This document shows, in pieces, positions 40,046-46,118 of a stretch of 64,000 bases of DNA; position 1 is the first letter of the stretch; each line of letters starts with the position of its first letter. A program made the position numbers and the translations under genes. Under the pieces are notes generated by a model that was given only the letters and a program-made list of their open reading frames with translations, did no database searches and was not told where the DNA came from. Origin of the DNA: an uncultured Candidatus Actinomarina sp. (GTDB lineage: Bacteria; Actinomycetota; Acidimicrobiia; Actinomarinales; Actinomarinaceae); the NCBI GenBank assembly GCA_902596545.1, contig CACJUH010000002.1, forward strand, positions 62,001-126,000, in the 5' to 3' direction.

Positions 40046-41017
40046 ATGAATACTATTGCTGTTGATGCAATGGGTGGAGACTCTGCTCCAATCGATATCG
40101 TTAAAGGAGCTATTAAAGCGAAAGATCAGGGTGTCGATGTTGTTTTATGTGGTGATAAAAATTTAATTAATCCATATTTAGAAAATCATGAAATACCTGT
40201 TTTTGATTTTCCCCAAGTTATTTCTATGGATGAAGATCCATTAAAAGCTATAAGAAATAAAAAGAATGCATCAATAGTTGGATGCATGCAATTACTTAAA
40301 GACAAAAAAGTACAGGCTGTATTTTCTGCAGGTTCTACAGGCGCAACATTAATAAGTGCAATTTCAATTCTTGGAAAACATAAGGGAGTTATTAGGCCTG
40401 TCATAGCTTCTGTGTTGCCTTCGTTAAGTGGTAATACAATTCTTCTTGATTCAGGAGCTAGTTTAGATGTAAAGCCAAAAGTTCTTTTTCAATATGGAAT
40501 AATGGGAGCAAAATTAGCTGAAGTAATAATGGATATCGACAATCCTAAAGTAGGTCTTCTAAATAACGGAGAAGAGGAAACTAAAGGTCGAGATGTAGAA
40601 AAAGCAGCATATAAATTATTAAAGAATAGTAATTTAAACTTTGTTGGAAATATAGAAGGAAGAGATTTTTCAACAAAAAAAGCTGATGTGTTTGTTACTG
40701 ACGGATTTACTGGAAATGTAGTATTAAAAACATTAGAAGGCACTGCAAAGTTACAGCAAAATCTAATTTCTTCAGCACTGTTAGATAATTTATTTAAACC
40801 TTTGTTAATTCCCGTAAAAAAAGCTTTGCAACCTGTTAAAGATCAGCTTAATCCAGATAAATCTGGTGCTTCATACTTACTAGGTGTAAACGGAGTAGTC
40901 ACAATAGGTCATGGTTCTTCTAATTCTGAAGCAGTCAAAAATGCAATTATATATACAGAAACTGCTGTAAAAAAAGATTTAATCAGTAAGTTTTCCTCCG
41001 CATTAAGTGAATTATGA
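40046..41017 (+). CDS. plsX: Phosphate acyltransferase PlsX
   Basis: 'IAVDAMGGDSAPIDIVKGAI', 'FSAGSTGATLISA', 'VFVTDGFTGNVVLKT'. Confidence 0.96.
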   Translation: MNTIAVDAMGGDSAPIDIVKGAIKAKDQGVDVVLCGDKNLINPYLENHEIPVFDFPQVISMDEDPLKAIRNKKNASIVGCMQLLKDKKVQAVFSAGSTGATLISAISILGKHKGVIRPVIASVLPSLSGNTILLDSGASLDVKPKVLFQYGIMGAKLAEVIMDIDNPKVGLLNNGEEETKGRDVEKAAYKLLKNSNLNFVGNIEGRDFSTKKADVFVTDGFTGNVVLKTLEGTAKLQQNLISSALLDNLFKPLLIPVKKALQPVKDQLNPDKSGASYLLGVNGVVTIGHGSSNSEAVKNAIIYTETAVKKDLISKFSSALSEL

Positions 41018-41691
41018 AAAGCATAGAAGATTTCGAGAAAACAATAGGGTATAGCTTTAAAGAAAAAAAACTTTTAAAAATTGCTTTAACTCATAAATCT
41101 TATTTAGACGAAAACCCAGATCTAATATCAAATCAGCGCTATGAGTTCTTTGGAGATACTATTTTGGATTTTGATTTAACTGAATACCTTTTTAAACATT
41201 TTCCAGATTTAGATGAAGGAAGTCTTACAAAGATAAGATCAAGTGCTGTTAATCAGACGAATTTAGTGAAATTAGGTAATGAAATAAATATTGGATCTTT
41301 TATGTTTTTAAGTAAAGCAGAGGATTCTACCGGAGGTAGGAACAAATCATCCATAATTGAAGATGCAGTAGAAGCTTTAATTGCAGCATTATATTTTGAC
41401 GGGGGATTAACCGCAGTAAATGGCTTTGTTTCTAAATACATATATCCGAGCATAAAAGAGCTTTCTGAAAATCCTGGACAGAAAGATTATAAAACAAGAC
41501 TTCAAGAGTATTATGCGAAAGTTGGGAAAAAAGTAAATTATATGGATTCATCTACTGGTCCGGATCATGATAAAAAATTTCAAACACAAGTTTTTTTGGA
41601 TAAAGAAATTATCGGAGTTGGAGAAGGCAAGTCAAAGAAAAGTTCACAACAAGAAGCCGCGAAACAAGCATTAGAAAAAATAAATGCCTGA
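41014..41691 (+). CDS. rnc: Ribonuclease III
   Basis: 'NQRYEFFGDTILDFDLTEYLF', 'EDAVEALIAALYFDGG', C-terminal dsRBD. Confidence 0.96.
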   Translation: MKSIEDFEKTIGYSFKEKKLLKIALTHKSYLDENPDLISNQRYEFFGDTILDFDLTEYLFKHFPDLDEGSLTKIRSSAVNQTNLVKLGNEINIGSFMFLSKAEDSTGGRNKSSIIEDAVEALIAALYFDGGLTAVNGFVSKYIYPSIKELSENPGQKDYKTRLQEYYAKVGKKVNYMDSSTGPDHDKKFQTQVFLDKEIIGVGEGKSKKSSQQEAAKQALEKINA

Positions 41692-42487
41692 ACTGCCTGA
41701 AGTAGAGTCAATTAAACGTTCGTTATCTTCAAATATTGTTGGTCAGAAACTAGAGAATTATAAAATCTATGATCATAGAACAAATAGATATAATACTAAA
41801 AAACCAACGATTAAAGAATCTTTATCAGGAATATCAAGAAAAGGTAAACTTTTAATTTTTGATTTTGAACATTATTCGATCATTTTTCATTTAGGAATGA
41901 GCGGAAGAATCCAAGTAAACGATAAAAAAAATAAACATACAAGAGCCCGTTTTTATTTTGACAAAGATACAGTAAATTTTGATGATATTAGAAGATTTGG
42001 ATTTATTAATATCATAAAAGCGGAATTTAAAATTGATTATTTGAATAAAATTGGTCCAGATGTGTTGGAGATTAGTACAAAACAATCAAGAATAATTATT
42101 GATAAAAGTAAGAAATCAAAATCATTGATAAAAGATTTTATACTTAACCAAAAATACATGAGTGGAGTAGGTAACATTTATGCAAACGAAATATTGTTTG
42201 CCTCAAGAATTCACCCTGAAACAAAAGTAAATGCTTTAAGTAGCAATAATTGGGAAGATTTATTTAATAACACCAAAAAAATTATGCGGTTAGCAATTAA
42301 AAACAATGGAACAACTTTAAGTGATATGACTTATTTTTTGCCTTATGGTGAATTTGGTTCAAATCAGAATTTTTTAAAAATATATAGCAAAACAAATTGT
42401 TTTAATTGTGGACATATAATTGATAAAATATACATTAACCAAAGAGCTACATATTTTTGTAGGAAATGTCAAAAATTAAAAAATTAA
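41684..42487 (+). CDS. mutM: Formamidopyrimidine-DNA glycosylase
   Basis: 'MPELPEVESIKRSL', 'FILNQKYMSGVGNIYANEILF', C-terminal zinc finger. Confidence 0.96.
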   Translation: MPELPEVESIKRSLSSNIVGQKLENYKIYDHRTNRYNTKKPTIKESLSGISRKGKLLIFDFEHYSIIFHLGMSGRIQVNDKKNKHTRARFYFDKDTVNFDDIRRFGFINIIKAEFKIDYLNKIGPDVLEISTKQSRIIIDKSKKSKSLIKDFILNQKYMSGVGNIYANEILFASRIHPETKVNALSSNNWEDLFNNTKKIMRLAIKNNGTTLSDMTYFLPYGEFGSNQNFLKIYSKTNCFNCGHIIDKIYINQRATYFCRKCQKLKN

Positions 42488-43401
42488 AAGTTCAACTAAA
42501 TAGAGACGGTTCTCTTGAATCGACTCACTTTGTTAACGTATATAAAAATGACCAAAATGAATATGATTATTTTTTTCCAAGATCAGCTGTTAAACCTTTT
42601 CAACTTATCCCTCTTCTTTATGAAGCCCAAAATCAAAATATATTATTAACAAGTGAAGAAATAGCTATATTTTCATCTTCTCATTCTGGTCAAGAAATTC
42701 ATACAGAATTAATTAAAACAATTGCAAAAAAATATGATTTAGATCTTGAAAGATTAGTTTGTGGAAAACAAAGACCTTTTCATGAACCTACCGCTGATAA
42801 ATTACTACAAAATAATAAAGAATATACAAAATTACACCATAACTGCTCAGGAAAGCACCTTGCCATGCTTTTATTTTCAAAAATTCTTAACGAGGATAAC
42901 AAAATTTATCATACCTTTAAAAGTAAAACACAATCGATAGTTAAAGAGTTCTTTCAATTTATTTTCACTGATAATGATATTGGTTTTGGCACAGACGGAT
43001 GTGGTCTTCCAGCGATACATTTACGAACTGATAGTTTTTTAAAAGCGGTTAATAAGATAAAAACTACAGAATACTCTAATAATTGGTCTGATATGTTTAA
43101 TTCTTACCATACAAACCCATTACTTATTGGCGGTGAAAATCGAACAGATACAAATATCATTCTCAATTCAAGCAAAACAGTTTTAGCTAAATCTGGTGCA
43201 GAAGGTGTTCTATTTGTTACGAATAACGATGAATCATATTTGTTTAAATGTATTGATGGAAGTAAAAGGGGAGTAGATTTAGCTGCAACTAAATACTTAA
43301 ACAAAATAGGAATGGTTAATGAAAAACCCTTTCAATATTTAAGCAATCTTTATAGTTTAAATACTCAAAACACTAAGGCAGTCACGATAACTGTTTCTTA
43401 A
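42466..43401 (+). CDS. L-asparaginase II family protein (PF06089-like)
   Basis: 'FPRSAVKPFQLIPLL', 'SSSHSGQEIHTELI', 'HHNCSGKHLAML', 'GTDGCGLPAIHL'; 22-nt overlap with mutM. Confidence 0.87.
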   Translation: MSKIKKLKVQLNRDGSLESTHFVNVYKNDQNEYDYFFPRSAVKPFQLIPLLYEAQNQNILLTSEEIAIFSSSHSGQEIHTELIKTIAKKYDLDLERLVCGKQRPFHEPTADKLLQNNKEYTKLHHNCSGKHLAMLLFSKILNEDNKIYHTFKSKTQSIVKEFFQFIFTDNDIGFGTDGCGLPAIHLRTDSFLKAVNKIKTTEYSNNWSDMFNSYHTNPLLIGGENRTDTNIILNSSKTVLAKSGAEGVLFVTNNDESYLFKCIDGSKRGVDLAATKYLNKIGMVNEKPFQYLSNLYSLNTQNTKAVTITVS

Positions 43402-43466: not shown

Positions 43467-46118
43467 ATGTATTTAAAATCTTTAGATATTAATGGCTTTA
43501 AGTCATTCTATGAAAAAACTTCTGTTGACTTTTCTAATAAAGTCAATGTAATAGTTGGACCGAATGGTTCTGGTAAATCCAATGTCGTTGATGCAATTTC
43601 TTGGGTATTAGGTACTCAAAGTCCAGCAACCTTAAGAACTAATAAGATGGAAGATGTTATATTTGCTGGTACTGAAAAGTTGTCTCAAAAAGGTTTTGCA
43701 GAAGTTTACTTGAATTTTGAAGTGGATGAAAAATTATTCAATGGAAATTCTGAAATATCTATTGGGAGAAAATTGTTTAGGGATGGTACATCAGAATATT
43801 TTATGAACGGATTAAATTGCCGTTTGTTAGATATTCAAGAATTTTTAAATGATGTTGGGATTGGAAAGCAGCAACATATCATTATTTCACAGGGGCAAAT
43901 AGCTGAAATTTTGAATTCTAAACCTGAAGATCACAGAACAACCATTGAAGAGGCAGCCGGAATTCTTCCACTTAGAGTTAAGAAAGAAAAATCATTAAAA
44001 AGAATTGAATCTGGCGAGAAAGAAATTAAGAGAGCAAAAGATGTTCTTCGTGAGATTAAAAAACAACTTAAACCTCTGCAAGATCAAGCAGAAAAAGCAA
44101 AAATACATGAAGAGAGTACAAAGCTCCTAAAGAGTAAAGTTATTGAACTGAATGTCATGATGTTCAGAAAATTTGATGATAAATATAAAAGTTTTGTAAT
44201 TGAAGAAAATTCCTTAGATCAAAACTTAGAAGATATTGATAAAAAATTAAATACATTAAAAGATCAAAAAGGTCAGATAAATAATGAACTTGGTGATGGA
44301 TACTCAATAGGTTCAACATTTAAAGATTACTCTGGAAAATTTTTAAATCTATCTGAGCAACTTAGGTCTTTAGCTCAAGTTGCATATGAGAGAAAAGATA
44401 ATCTAGAACGTGAAGAAATTAAAGCTTCCGAAGAGCTAAATAAAACTATTAATAAAATAAATGAAAATAATAATCAAATATCAATGCTCACCTCTCAGTT
44501 GATGGATAAAAAGCAAAGCCTAACTAATTTAGAAAATCAAAGTGTAGACATTAAGTATCAAATTGAAGAGATTATTAAAAAACTATCTGCTTCTACAGAG
44601 GTAAATGAAGCAGTTTTAGAAAGTGAAATCAAACAAATTAGACAATCAATTGATATTACAAATAAAGATTTACAACTTTTTGAAAAGGAATTTTCAAAGT
44701 GGGAAGAAGATCTACAAATTTCAGAATCTTTGTTAAATGATTTAAACATAAAATTAGAATCGTATCAAATTCCAAAAGATTTAGTTGAAGAATTTCCGGC
44801 TCATACAAAAAAAATAATACGAAGAGAATTAGACATTAATAAAAATAATATTCTAAAAATTAATTTTGATTCTGAAAATTTAAATTCTGAACTTCTTAAG
44901 AAAGAAGAGCTCCTCTCAAATATTTTTCATAAAGAAGAATTTAAATCTGATATAAACAAACAAAAAGATGAATTAGAAAATAAACTTAAACAATTAGAAC
45001 AAGATATAAGTCTTATTAGCAATCAACTTATTACATCTCAAGAAAGAATAAAAAATCTTTCTAATCAGAATACTGAATTAAATATTGTAAAAAAGAATCT
45101 TGAGGGAATTGATAGATTACATCAGAAGTCACAGTTATCTGAAATAATCAATTCTGCAAAAACTTTTATAGAGTTTACAAACTCAACTTCTAATAAATTA
45201 GAAATAGAATCTGAAAAATTTGACCAAAAATATGGAAATTCTAATAAGAAAATTGAAAGAATAGATGAACAAATTGAAAATTTAAATAATGAGCTTTTCA
45301 ATACAAAAGATATGTTAACTAACGTAGCAATCAAAAAATCTGAAATGGAGAGTTCTAAGAGCAATCATTACTCTAATTTAGTAAATATATATGGTTTGAA
45401 TATTGATCAAATTAATCAATATGGAATTATTGCTGCAAATCAAAGTGAATTAGAAAATGAAATTAAACTTCTTGAAAACAAGTTAGAAGAGATAGGTACT
45501 GTCAATTACCTAGCAAAAGAAGACTTTGATTCTTTAAATCTCAGATATGAAGAAATACAGTCTACCATTGATGATTTACAGCTTTCAAAAAAAGAGTTGT
45601 TGTTAAACATTAAAGAAGTAGAAACTGAAATAGAATTCAGAATAGAATCATCATTTAATTCTATATCTGTACATTTTTCTGAAATATTTGAAACATTATT
45701 TCCAGGGGGTAAAGGATCACTTTCCTTCACTGATAAAACAAATATTTTAGAGACTGGCATAGAGATATCAGTACAACCAAGAGGCAAGAAAGTCAAAAAA
45801 CTTTCATTATTATCTGGTGGAGAGAGATCATTGGCTGCAATTGCATTTCTATTTTCAATATTTAAATCTTTTCCGAGTCCATTTTATATTTTAGATGAAG
45901 TTGAAGCAGCTCTTGATGATGCAAATCTTCATAGAATGATTAATTTGCTCGATAAAATAAAAGAAGATGCACAATACATAATTGTTACACATCAACAACA
46001 AACCATGCATGCTGGAGATGTGTTATATGGTGTAACTATGGAGCCAGGTTCTGGATCTAGAGTGTTCACAAAGACAAAAGAAGATTTTGAAAGTTTAATA
46101 GGTACTAATGAAAAATAG
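43467..46118 (+). CDS. smc: SMC family chromosome segregation ATPase (short, no recognisable hinge)
   Basis: 'GFKSFYEKTSVDFSNKVNVIVGPNGSGKSNVVDAISWVLG', 'LSGGERSLAAIAFLFSIFK', 'FYILDEVEAALDDANLHR'; only 883 aa. Confidence 0.93.
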   Translation: MYLKSLDINGFKSFYEKTSVDFSNKVNVIVGPNGSGKSNVVDAISWVLGTQSPATLRTNKMEDVIFAGTEKLSQKGFAEVYLNFEVDEKLFNGNSEISIGRKLFRDGTSEYFMNGLNCRLLDIQEFLNDVGIGKQQHIIISQGQIAEILNSKPEDHRTTIEEAAGILPLRVKKEKSLKRIESGEKEIKRAKDVLREIKKQLKPLQDQAEKAKIHEESTKLLKSKVIELNVMMFRKFDDKYKSFVIEENSLDQNLEDIDKKLNTLKDQKGQINNELGDGYSIGSTFKDYSGKFLNLSEQLRSLAQVAYERKDNLEREEIKASEELNKTINKINENNNQISMLTSQLMDKKQSLTNLENQSVDIKYQIEEIIKKLSASTEVNEAVLESEIKQIRQSIDITNKDLQLFEKEFSKWEEDLQISESLLNDLNIKLESYQIPKDLVEEFPAHTKKIIRRELDINKNNILKINFDSENLNSELLKKEELLSNIFHKEEFKSDINKQKDELENKLKQLEQDISLISNQLITSQERIKNLSNQNTELNIVKKNLEGIDRLHQKSQLSEIINSAKTFIEFTNSTSNKLEIESEKFDQKYGNSNKKIERIDEQIENLNNELFNTKDMLTNVAIKKSEMESSKSNHYSNLVNIYGLNIDQINQYGIIAANQSELENEIKLLENKLEEIGTVNYLAKEDFDSLNLRYEEIQSTIDDLQLSKKELLLNIKEVETEIEFRIESSFNSISVHFSEIFETLFPGGKGSLSFTDKTNILETGIEISVQPRGKKVKKLSLLSGGERSLAAIAFLFSIFKSFPSPFYILDEVEAALDDANLHRMINLLDKIKEDAQYIIVTHQQQTMHAGDVLYGVTMEPGSGSRVFTKTKEDFESLIGTNEK

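Follow-up and report, generated by a model that had tools for sequence, protein, structure and literature searches.

A hinge-less SMC ATPase in Candidatus Actinomarinales and the apparent repeated loss of the hinge in Actinomycetota

The window analysed here is a stretch of 64,000 nucleotides from an uncultured Candidatus Actinomarina sp., and all the features described lie on its + strand. The conserved smc neighbourhood starts with a plsX-like gene (40046..41017, recognised by eye from its translation), followed by an rnc-like gene for RNase III (41014..41691, also from its translation), mutM/fpg for formamidopyrimidine-DNA glycosylase (41684..42487, PF01149 and PF06831), an L-asparaginase II-like gene (42466..43401, PF06089, E 2.4e-61) and then smc itself (43467..46118). 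The rnc-like gene has the same place in two other Actinomycetota families, f64 and f81, at whose loci the order plsX-rnc-smc was confirmed by Pfam. The original prediction had placed the gene at a typical smc position after rnc-mutM. The locus is indeed that of smc, but the gene does not directly follow mutM, since the L-asparaginase II gene lies in between. The 3' neighbour is a cdd-like gene and not ftsY, unlike the plsX-rnc-smc-ftsY arrangement of f64.

The open reading frame at 43467-46118 translates into a protein of 883 aa, with its ATPase motifs split between the N- and C-terminal ends. The Walker A motif GPNGSGKSN (aa 31-39, 43557..43583) is essentially invariant in 30 genus members, the ABC signature LSGGERS (aa 782-788, 45810..45830) is conserved in the genus, and the Walker B motif with the D-loop, FYILDEVEAALDD (aa 806-818, 45882..45920), is invariant; as a set, the catalytic motifs hardly vary. 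The head motifs were thus intact as predicted, with correct coordinates. The protein scores 627 bits against the NCBIfam model for the bacterial SMC equivalog, SMC_prok_B (TIGR02168, cutoff 567), and the other hinge-less proteins described below score 601-657 bits. It fails the NCBIfam recN model (49.6 bits, cutoff 407.9). The nearest solved chains are bacterial Smc heads with an E-value of 1e-106, Rad50 being far weaker at 1e-12. Judged from its sequence, this is a true SMC of the bacterial type whose ATPase motifs are complete.

A hinge of roughly 150-200 aa normally occupies the tip of the SMC arms. Here the Pfam SMC_hinge model PF06470 gave no match in the window protein even at E ≤ 10, and none in the 30 genus proteins at E ≤ 0.01, whereas 18 of the 19 full-length outgroup SMCs of the same class matched it. 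A six-frame PF06470 scan of whole genomes gave no matches in 42 genomes of the order, and a profile-profile comparison of the genus with the hinge of the class returned a probability of 0.3%. A divergent hinge missed by Pfam was ruled out by our own hinge HMM, by the profile-profile comparison and by the AlphaFold2 model, and a second SMC, or a hinge supplied in trans that is recognisable by homology, was ruled out by the whole-genome searches. The CxxC motif of the zinc hook was found in no member of the genus, nor in any other hinge-less SMC examined, and this rules out a Rad50-like hook in the Actinomarina SMC. The claims that the protein has neither an SMC hinge nor a Rad50 CxxC hook are both borne out.

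The AlphaFold2 model of the window SMC, built from 30 genus sequences, has a mean pLDDT of 71.7, with mostly 80-89 in the arms and a poorly modelled head. It shows long antiparallel helices that turn in a hairpin at aa 433-441, and the tip carries no globular domain. The N-terminal coiled-coil arm is predicted at aa 167-432 (43965..44762), interrupted near aa 273-280 and 375-376, the tip loop YQIPKDLVE at aa 433-441 (44763..44789) and the C-terminal arm at aa 442-744 (44790..45698); the helices that flank the loop are 377-432 and 442-484. The C-terminal arm includes the joint motif IGTVNYLA (aa 676-683), in which G677 and V679-A683 are invariant in the genus, so the protein has two long coiled-coil arms and a head-proximal joint. 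The proline-containing break YQIPKDLVEEFP (aa 433-444), at which two nearly equal arms had been predicted to meet, coincides with the interhelix loop of the model. Breaks that face each other, at about 273-280/587-596 and 375/485-488, could be kinks of the arms. Head to head, arms plus tip measure 546 aa or about 273 per side, and the arm comparison uses such head-to-head totals of hinge-less proteins only. The sequence of the tip is weakly conserved, with a mean identity of 0.36-0.42, and its net charge varies between sister species from -4 to +7 over 56 aa, which rules out a conserved basic DNA-binding tip. Four residues near the tip, W412, D415, R453 and E454, are nearly invariant in the genus.

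The search of 59 whole genomes showed that SMC is present in all 34 congeners, with one SMC per genome across the genus. Where the gene is unbroken, the protein is always 881-886 aa; the remaining copies are cut at contig ends, and one has a frameshift. The latter, near codon 596 in the single-cell genome AG-410-G16 (L149 / L075), splits the reading frame and is probably a sequencing error. SMCs of outgroups in the same class are about 1115-1240 aa. The distance from Walker A to the signature is exactly 751 aa in 35 of the 35 Actinomarinales loci that have both motifs, whereas the 28 closest canonical loci have 1015-1025 aa. All SMCs of Candidatus Actinomarinales that could be read over their whole length lack the hinge, and the copies with a title come from single-cell genomes and MAGs of Candidatus Actinomarina, Actinomarinales and the OCS155 cluster. 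An assembly deletion is excluded, since the same length is found in single-cell genomes and MAGs that were assembled independently of one another, tens of them in all. The short SMC of the original prediction is therefore real and not an artefact of one contig, the loss extends through the whole order when the relatives' smc genes are compared, and the check for a second SMC found a single gene.

When the class was surveyed, a hinge match was found in 327 of 395 genomes. Among the 26 non-member genomes without a match none had a complete short SMC; most of them held fragments or did not yield smc, and three had a long SMC (1115-1166 aa). The reading of this survey, that hinge loss is restricted to Actinomarinales, was overturned by a survey of the phylum, for which samples of 60 and 149 Actinomycetota genomes were searched with a hinge HMM built from the SMCs of the class. 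Together with Pfam, it revealed short or hinge-free SMCs in five further families. The hinge is missing in 8/8 members of f61, with 893 residues from Walker A to the signature in all, in 11/11 of f64 (608-649), in 2/2 of f81 (764 and 767), and in the one genome each of f85 (1/1, 653) and f89 (1/1, 782). PF06470 was found in none of the 22 proteins scanned with Pfam. Where checked, the genes stand at the normal smc locus, plsX-rnc-smc-ftsY-ffh in f64 and plsX-rnc-smc in f81. All other families score 17-205 bits with the hinge HMM, save one divergent SMC of 1115 aa (L066, genome G046, family f11), whose hinge-like region at aa ~480-605 is too divergent for Pfam and the class HMM (1.3 bits). We scored it as hinge-bearing because of its length and a hinge-like middle of about 120 aa recognised by eye. 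In the same genome ScpB and ParB were found, and a ScpA match and a recognisable parS were absent.

The centre of the f61 protein was modelled separately (AlphaFold2, 371 aa, 7 sequences), and the model consists of two helices without a break, 2-169 and 174-370, folded back on each other as a hairpin (mean pLDDT 94). According to this model the hinge of f61 is simply gone. The f61 SMCs can be aligned without gaps over about 1000 columns in 7 genomes (L223, L224, L226, L241-L244), and from head to head they count 688 residues; the resulting 344 per side equal the arm length of Bacillus subtilis. No resemblance is apparent among the tips of the six hinge-less families.

A tree of the heads only (LG+C20 PMSF) nests the Actinomarinales SMC inside the canonical Acidimicrobiia SMCs with a support of 99/99, which indicates vertical descent within them. 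On this tree the hinge state needs five changes, four of which are forced by well-supported branches, and none of the bootstrap trees could be explained by one change. A single hinge-less clade was rejected by the AU test (p = 4e-7), as were f1+f61 (p 0.028) and f1+f64+f81 (p 0.009) as constrained clades, values to be read with the long branches and the compositional bias of f64, f81 and f1 in mind. The change is read as loss and not gain on the general ground that hinges occur in SMCs of all domains. On this tree at least four independent losses of the hinge are needed in Actinomycetota.

ParB was found in 34 of 35 genus genomes, including the window's own assembly (G000). In nearly all of the genus genomes sampled, including G000 (contig G000:C5), a parS site with no or one mismatch was located at a distance of about 0.9-1.2 kb from parB. 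The check for ScpA and ScpB among 34 congeners showed that both are encoded in most assemblies, ScpA in 24/34 and ScpB in 25/34, with scpA and scpB adjacent. The window's own assembly is without the whole block pyrG-xerD-scpA-scpB-rluB-cmk. Since pyrG-xerD-scpA-scpB is present in G023, which has a 96%-identical SMC, and the contig of a near-identical strain (G034) stops just before scpA, an assembly gap is the most likely explanation.

An abundant, monophyletic clade of hinge-less SMCs without CxxC has been reported from marine actinobacteria by Sussfeld et al. 2025 (Environ Microbiome 20:65, PMC12153180), who gave no host lineage, partner genes or locus and considered that its function or its way of binding DNA might differ. 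Their clade shares with ours the SMC head and coiled coil, the missing hinge and CxxC, the marine habitat and the monophyly. NCBI places Candidatus Actinomarinales in the class Actinomycetes, to which their clade is annotated in PMC12153180, and from the description the two are very probably the same. Our search of the literature on hinge-less SMCs found nothing relevant beyond that study. The hinge-less clade itself is thus partly published; what is new here is the named host order, in which this is the sole SMC, its vertical descent, the persistence of ParB-parS-ScpAB, in which the N-terminus of ScpA is remodelled, and the recurrence in at least three further lineages. Neither the published clade nor the recurrence had been anticipated in the original prediction.

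Compared with Smc-ScpAB of B. subtilis, the Actinomarina system has in common the TIGR02168 family, the head, the joint motif, a ScpA kleisin and a ScpB kite protein, ParB-parS and the rnc-smc locus. B. subtilis Smc has a hinge and arms of 344 aa (PMC5344682), whereas Actinomarina has no hinge and only about 273 aa per side. According to Buermann et al. 2017 (PMC5344682), workable arm lengths in B. subtilis are only 253-267, about 321-373 and 407-435 aa, and the integrity of the arms is more important than the hinge fold. In the same study Smc(Zh), a chimera with the zinc hook of Rad50 in place of the hinge, grew normally on rich medium, so that growth there does not depend on the hinge fold. 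However, the chimera is engineered and keeps a strong dimeriser, whereas both hinge and hook are missing from the natural proteins. As one dimeriser was exchanged for another, the chimera does not speak for viability without any tip dimeriser. Rad50/SbcC and the archaeal ASRP/coalescin (ClsN) likewise combine an SMC-type head and an antiparallel coiled coil with the lack of an SMC hinge, but they dimerise through a CxxC zinc hook, and the head of the hinge-less proteins is that of a bacterial SMC and not of Rad50.

By its sequence and descent the sole smc of Candidatus Actinomarinales is the orthologous smc gene. We consider it likely, with a probability of about 0.68, that its product forms a working Smc-ScpAB complex in which the SMC pair is held together by the kleisin, the ATP-engaged heads and contacts between the arms, and not by a hinge. 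The ancestor of Actinomarinales would have lost the hinge and a part of each distal arm, leaving near-equal arms with a short helical hairpin between them. Smc-ScpAB would still be an ATP-driven chromosome organiser, loaded by ParB at parS. The ScpA kleisin and the sandwiching of ATP would bridge two SMCs at the heads, and the arms would be zipped, in place of the hold of the hinge, by coil-coil contacts of the kind described for the Smc rod, where up to seven were reported (Diebold-Durand et al. 2017, PMC5526789). Such a complex would be a clamp with two arms, only weakly closed at the far end by contact between the arms or between the tips, or else open there. The absence of indels suggests that the arm is a lever of fixed length, and the strict length, together with the low conservation of the tip, would agree with a lever that depends on register more than on a specific interface at the tip, although this is only suggestive, as antiparallel coiled coils resist indels anyway.

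The main rival to this kleisin-held complex is that the tip of the hairpin has become a new homodimerisation element, a cryptic dimer with a short four-helix contact or antiparallel overlap of two tips, in which case the ring is still closed and the ring model unchanged. We regard this as rather unlikely, but it is the alternative to be taken most seriously. The head-to-head length does not vary at all in 35/35 Actinomarinales loci and 8/8 of f61 despite a fast-evolving sequence, the nearly invariant W412, D415, R453 and E454 lie close to the tip, and the hinge fold is known to be exchangeable for other dimerisers. Against this, the strong variation of tip sequence and charge between sister species argues against a dedicated interface, the tips of the six families have nothing recognisable in common, and a fixed length is by itself no proof of a contact at the tip in a coiled coil that resists indels.

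It is improbable that the gene is decaying or of minor importance. Corynebacterium glutamicum can do without smc, whose loss is compensated by FtsK (PMC11898615), which may explain why hinge loss is tolerated in Actinomycetota, and the repeated loss is so far known from this phylum, the sole one surveyed. A degenerating gene would, however, hardly combine a highly conserved head and catalytic motifs, the absence of indels between the motifs in 35 loci and retention in 34/34 congeners searched, all of which imply strong purifying selection. Still less probable is a small separate protein that caps the tips of the arms as a hinge in trans. A non-homologous cap is conceivable, but nothing direct speaks for it, and PF06470-like sequence was found in none of the 42 genomes of the order in six frames. 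The idea that the gene results from misassembly or a frameshift, or that a Rad50/SbcC-like protein was taken for an SMC, has the unusual length in its favour and nothing else. The same result comes from tens of SAG and MAG assemblies made independently, and the equivalog-level TIGR02168 match, the missing CxxC and the far better match to Smc heads than to Rad50 make the chance of such an error close to negligible.

In all domains the hinge is considered to define SMC proteins and to be indispensable to them, and both the ring-entrapment and the loop-extrusion models depend on its serving as a closed gate. A natural, selectively maintained hinge-less SMC that has evolved repeatedly makes the purpose of the hinge directly testable. 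In Actinomarinales such a protein is found together with retained ParB-parS and ScpAB, and there and in at least three other Actinomycetota branches nature has already run the experiment on the need for ring closure. The f61 proteins separate arm length from the hinge, as the arms have the same 344 residues per side as in B. subtilis and the hinge is gone. The newer and more interesting part of these observations is that the hinge was lost several times independently and that the Smc-ScpAB-ParB context has been kept. A more general proposal, that bacterial condensin does not require hinge closure and that at least four Actinomycetota lineages, whose sole SMC lost its hinge independently, use an open, kleisin-tethered two-armed clamp with arms of a fixed length specific to each lineage, is tentative, and we hold it at somewhat less than even odds.

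The N-terminal region of bacterial kleisins binds the SMC neck, and in this genus that region of ScpA is altered. The Pfam kleisin match starts at profile position 24-31 in all genus ScpA, as compared to position 1 in ScpA of the same class. The GPFDLLL motif of the N-terminus has given way to other sequence, and the next helix, FLxLAsxLfElKAkrLLP, is kept (L067-L073 compared with L031-L038). This remodelling suggests that the link between head and kleisin may also differ, and it is possible that ScpA has co-evolved with the hinge-less SMC. Many actinobacteria have parA directly upstream of scpA. In L067-L073 the position directly upstream of scpA, after xerD, is taken by an ORF of 145-157 aa with an LHDIGK motif, which by eye is of the HD type.
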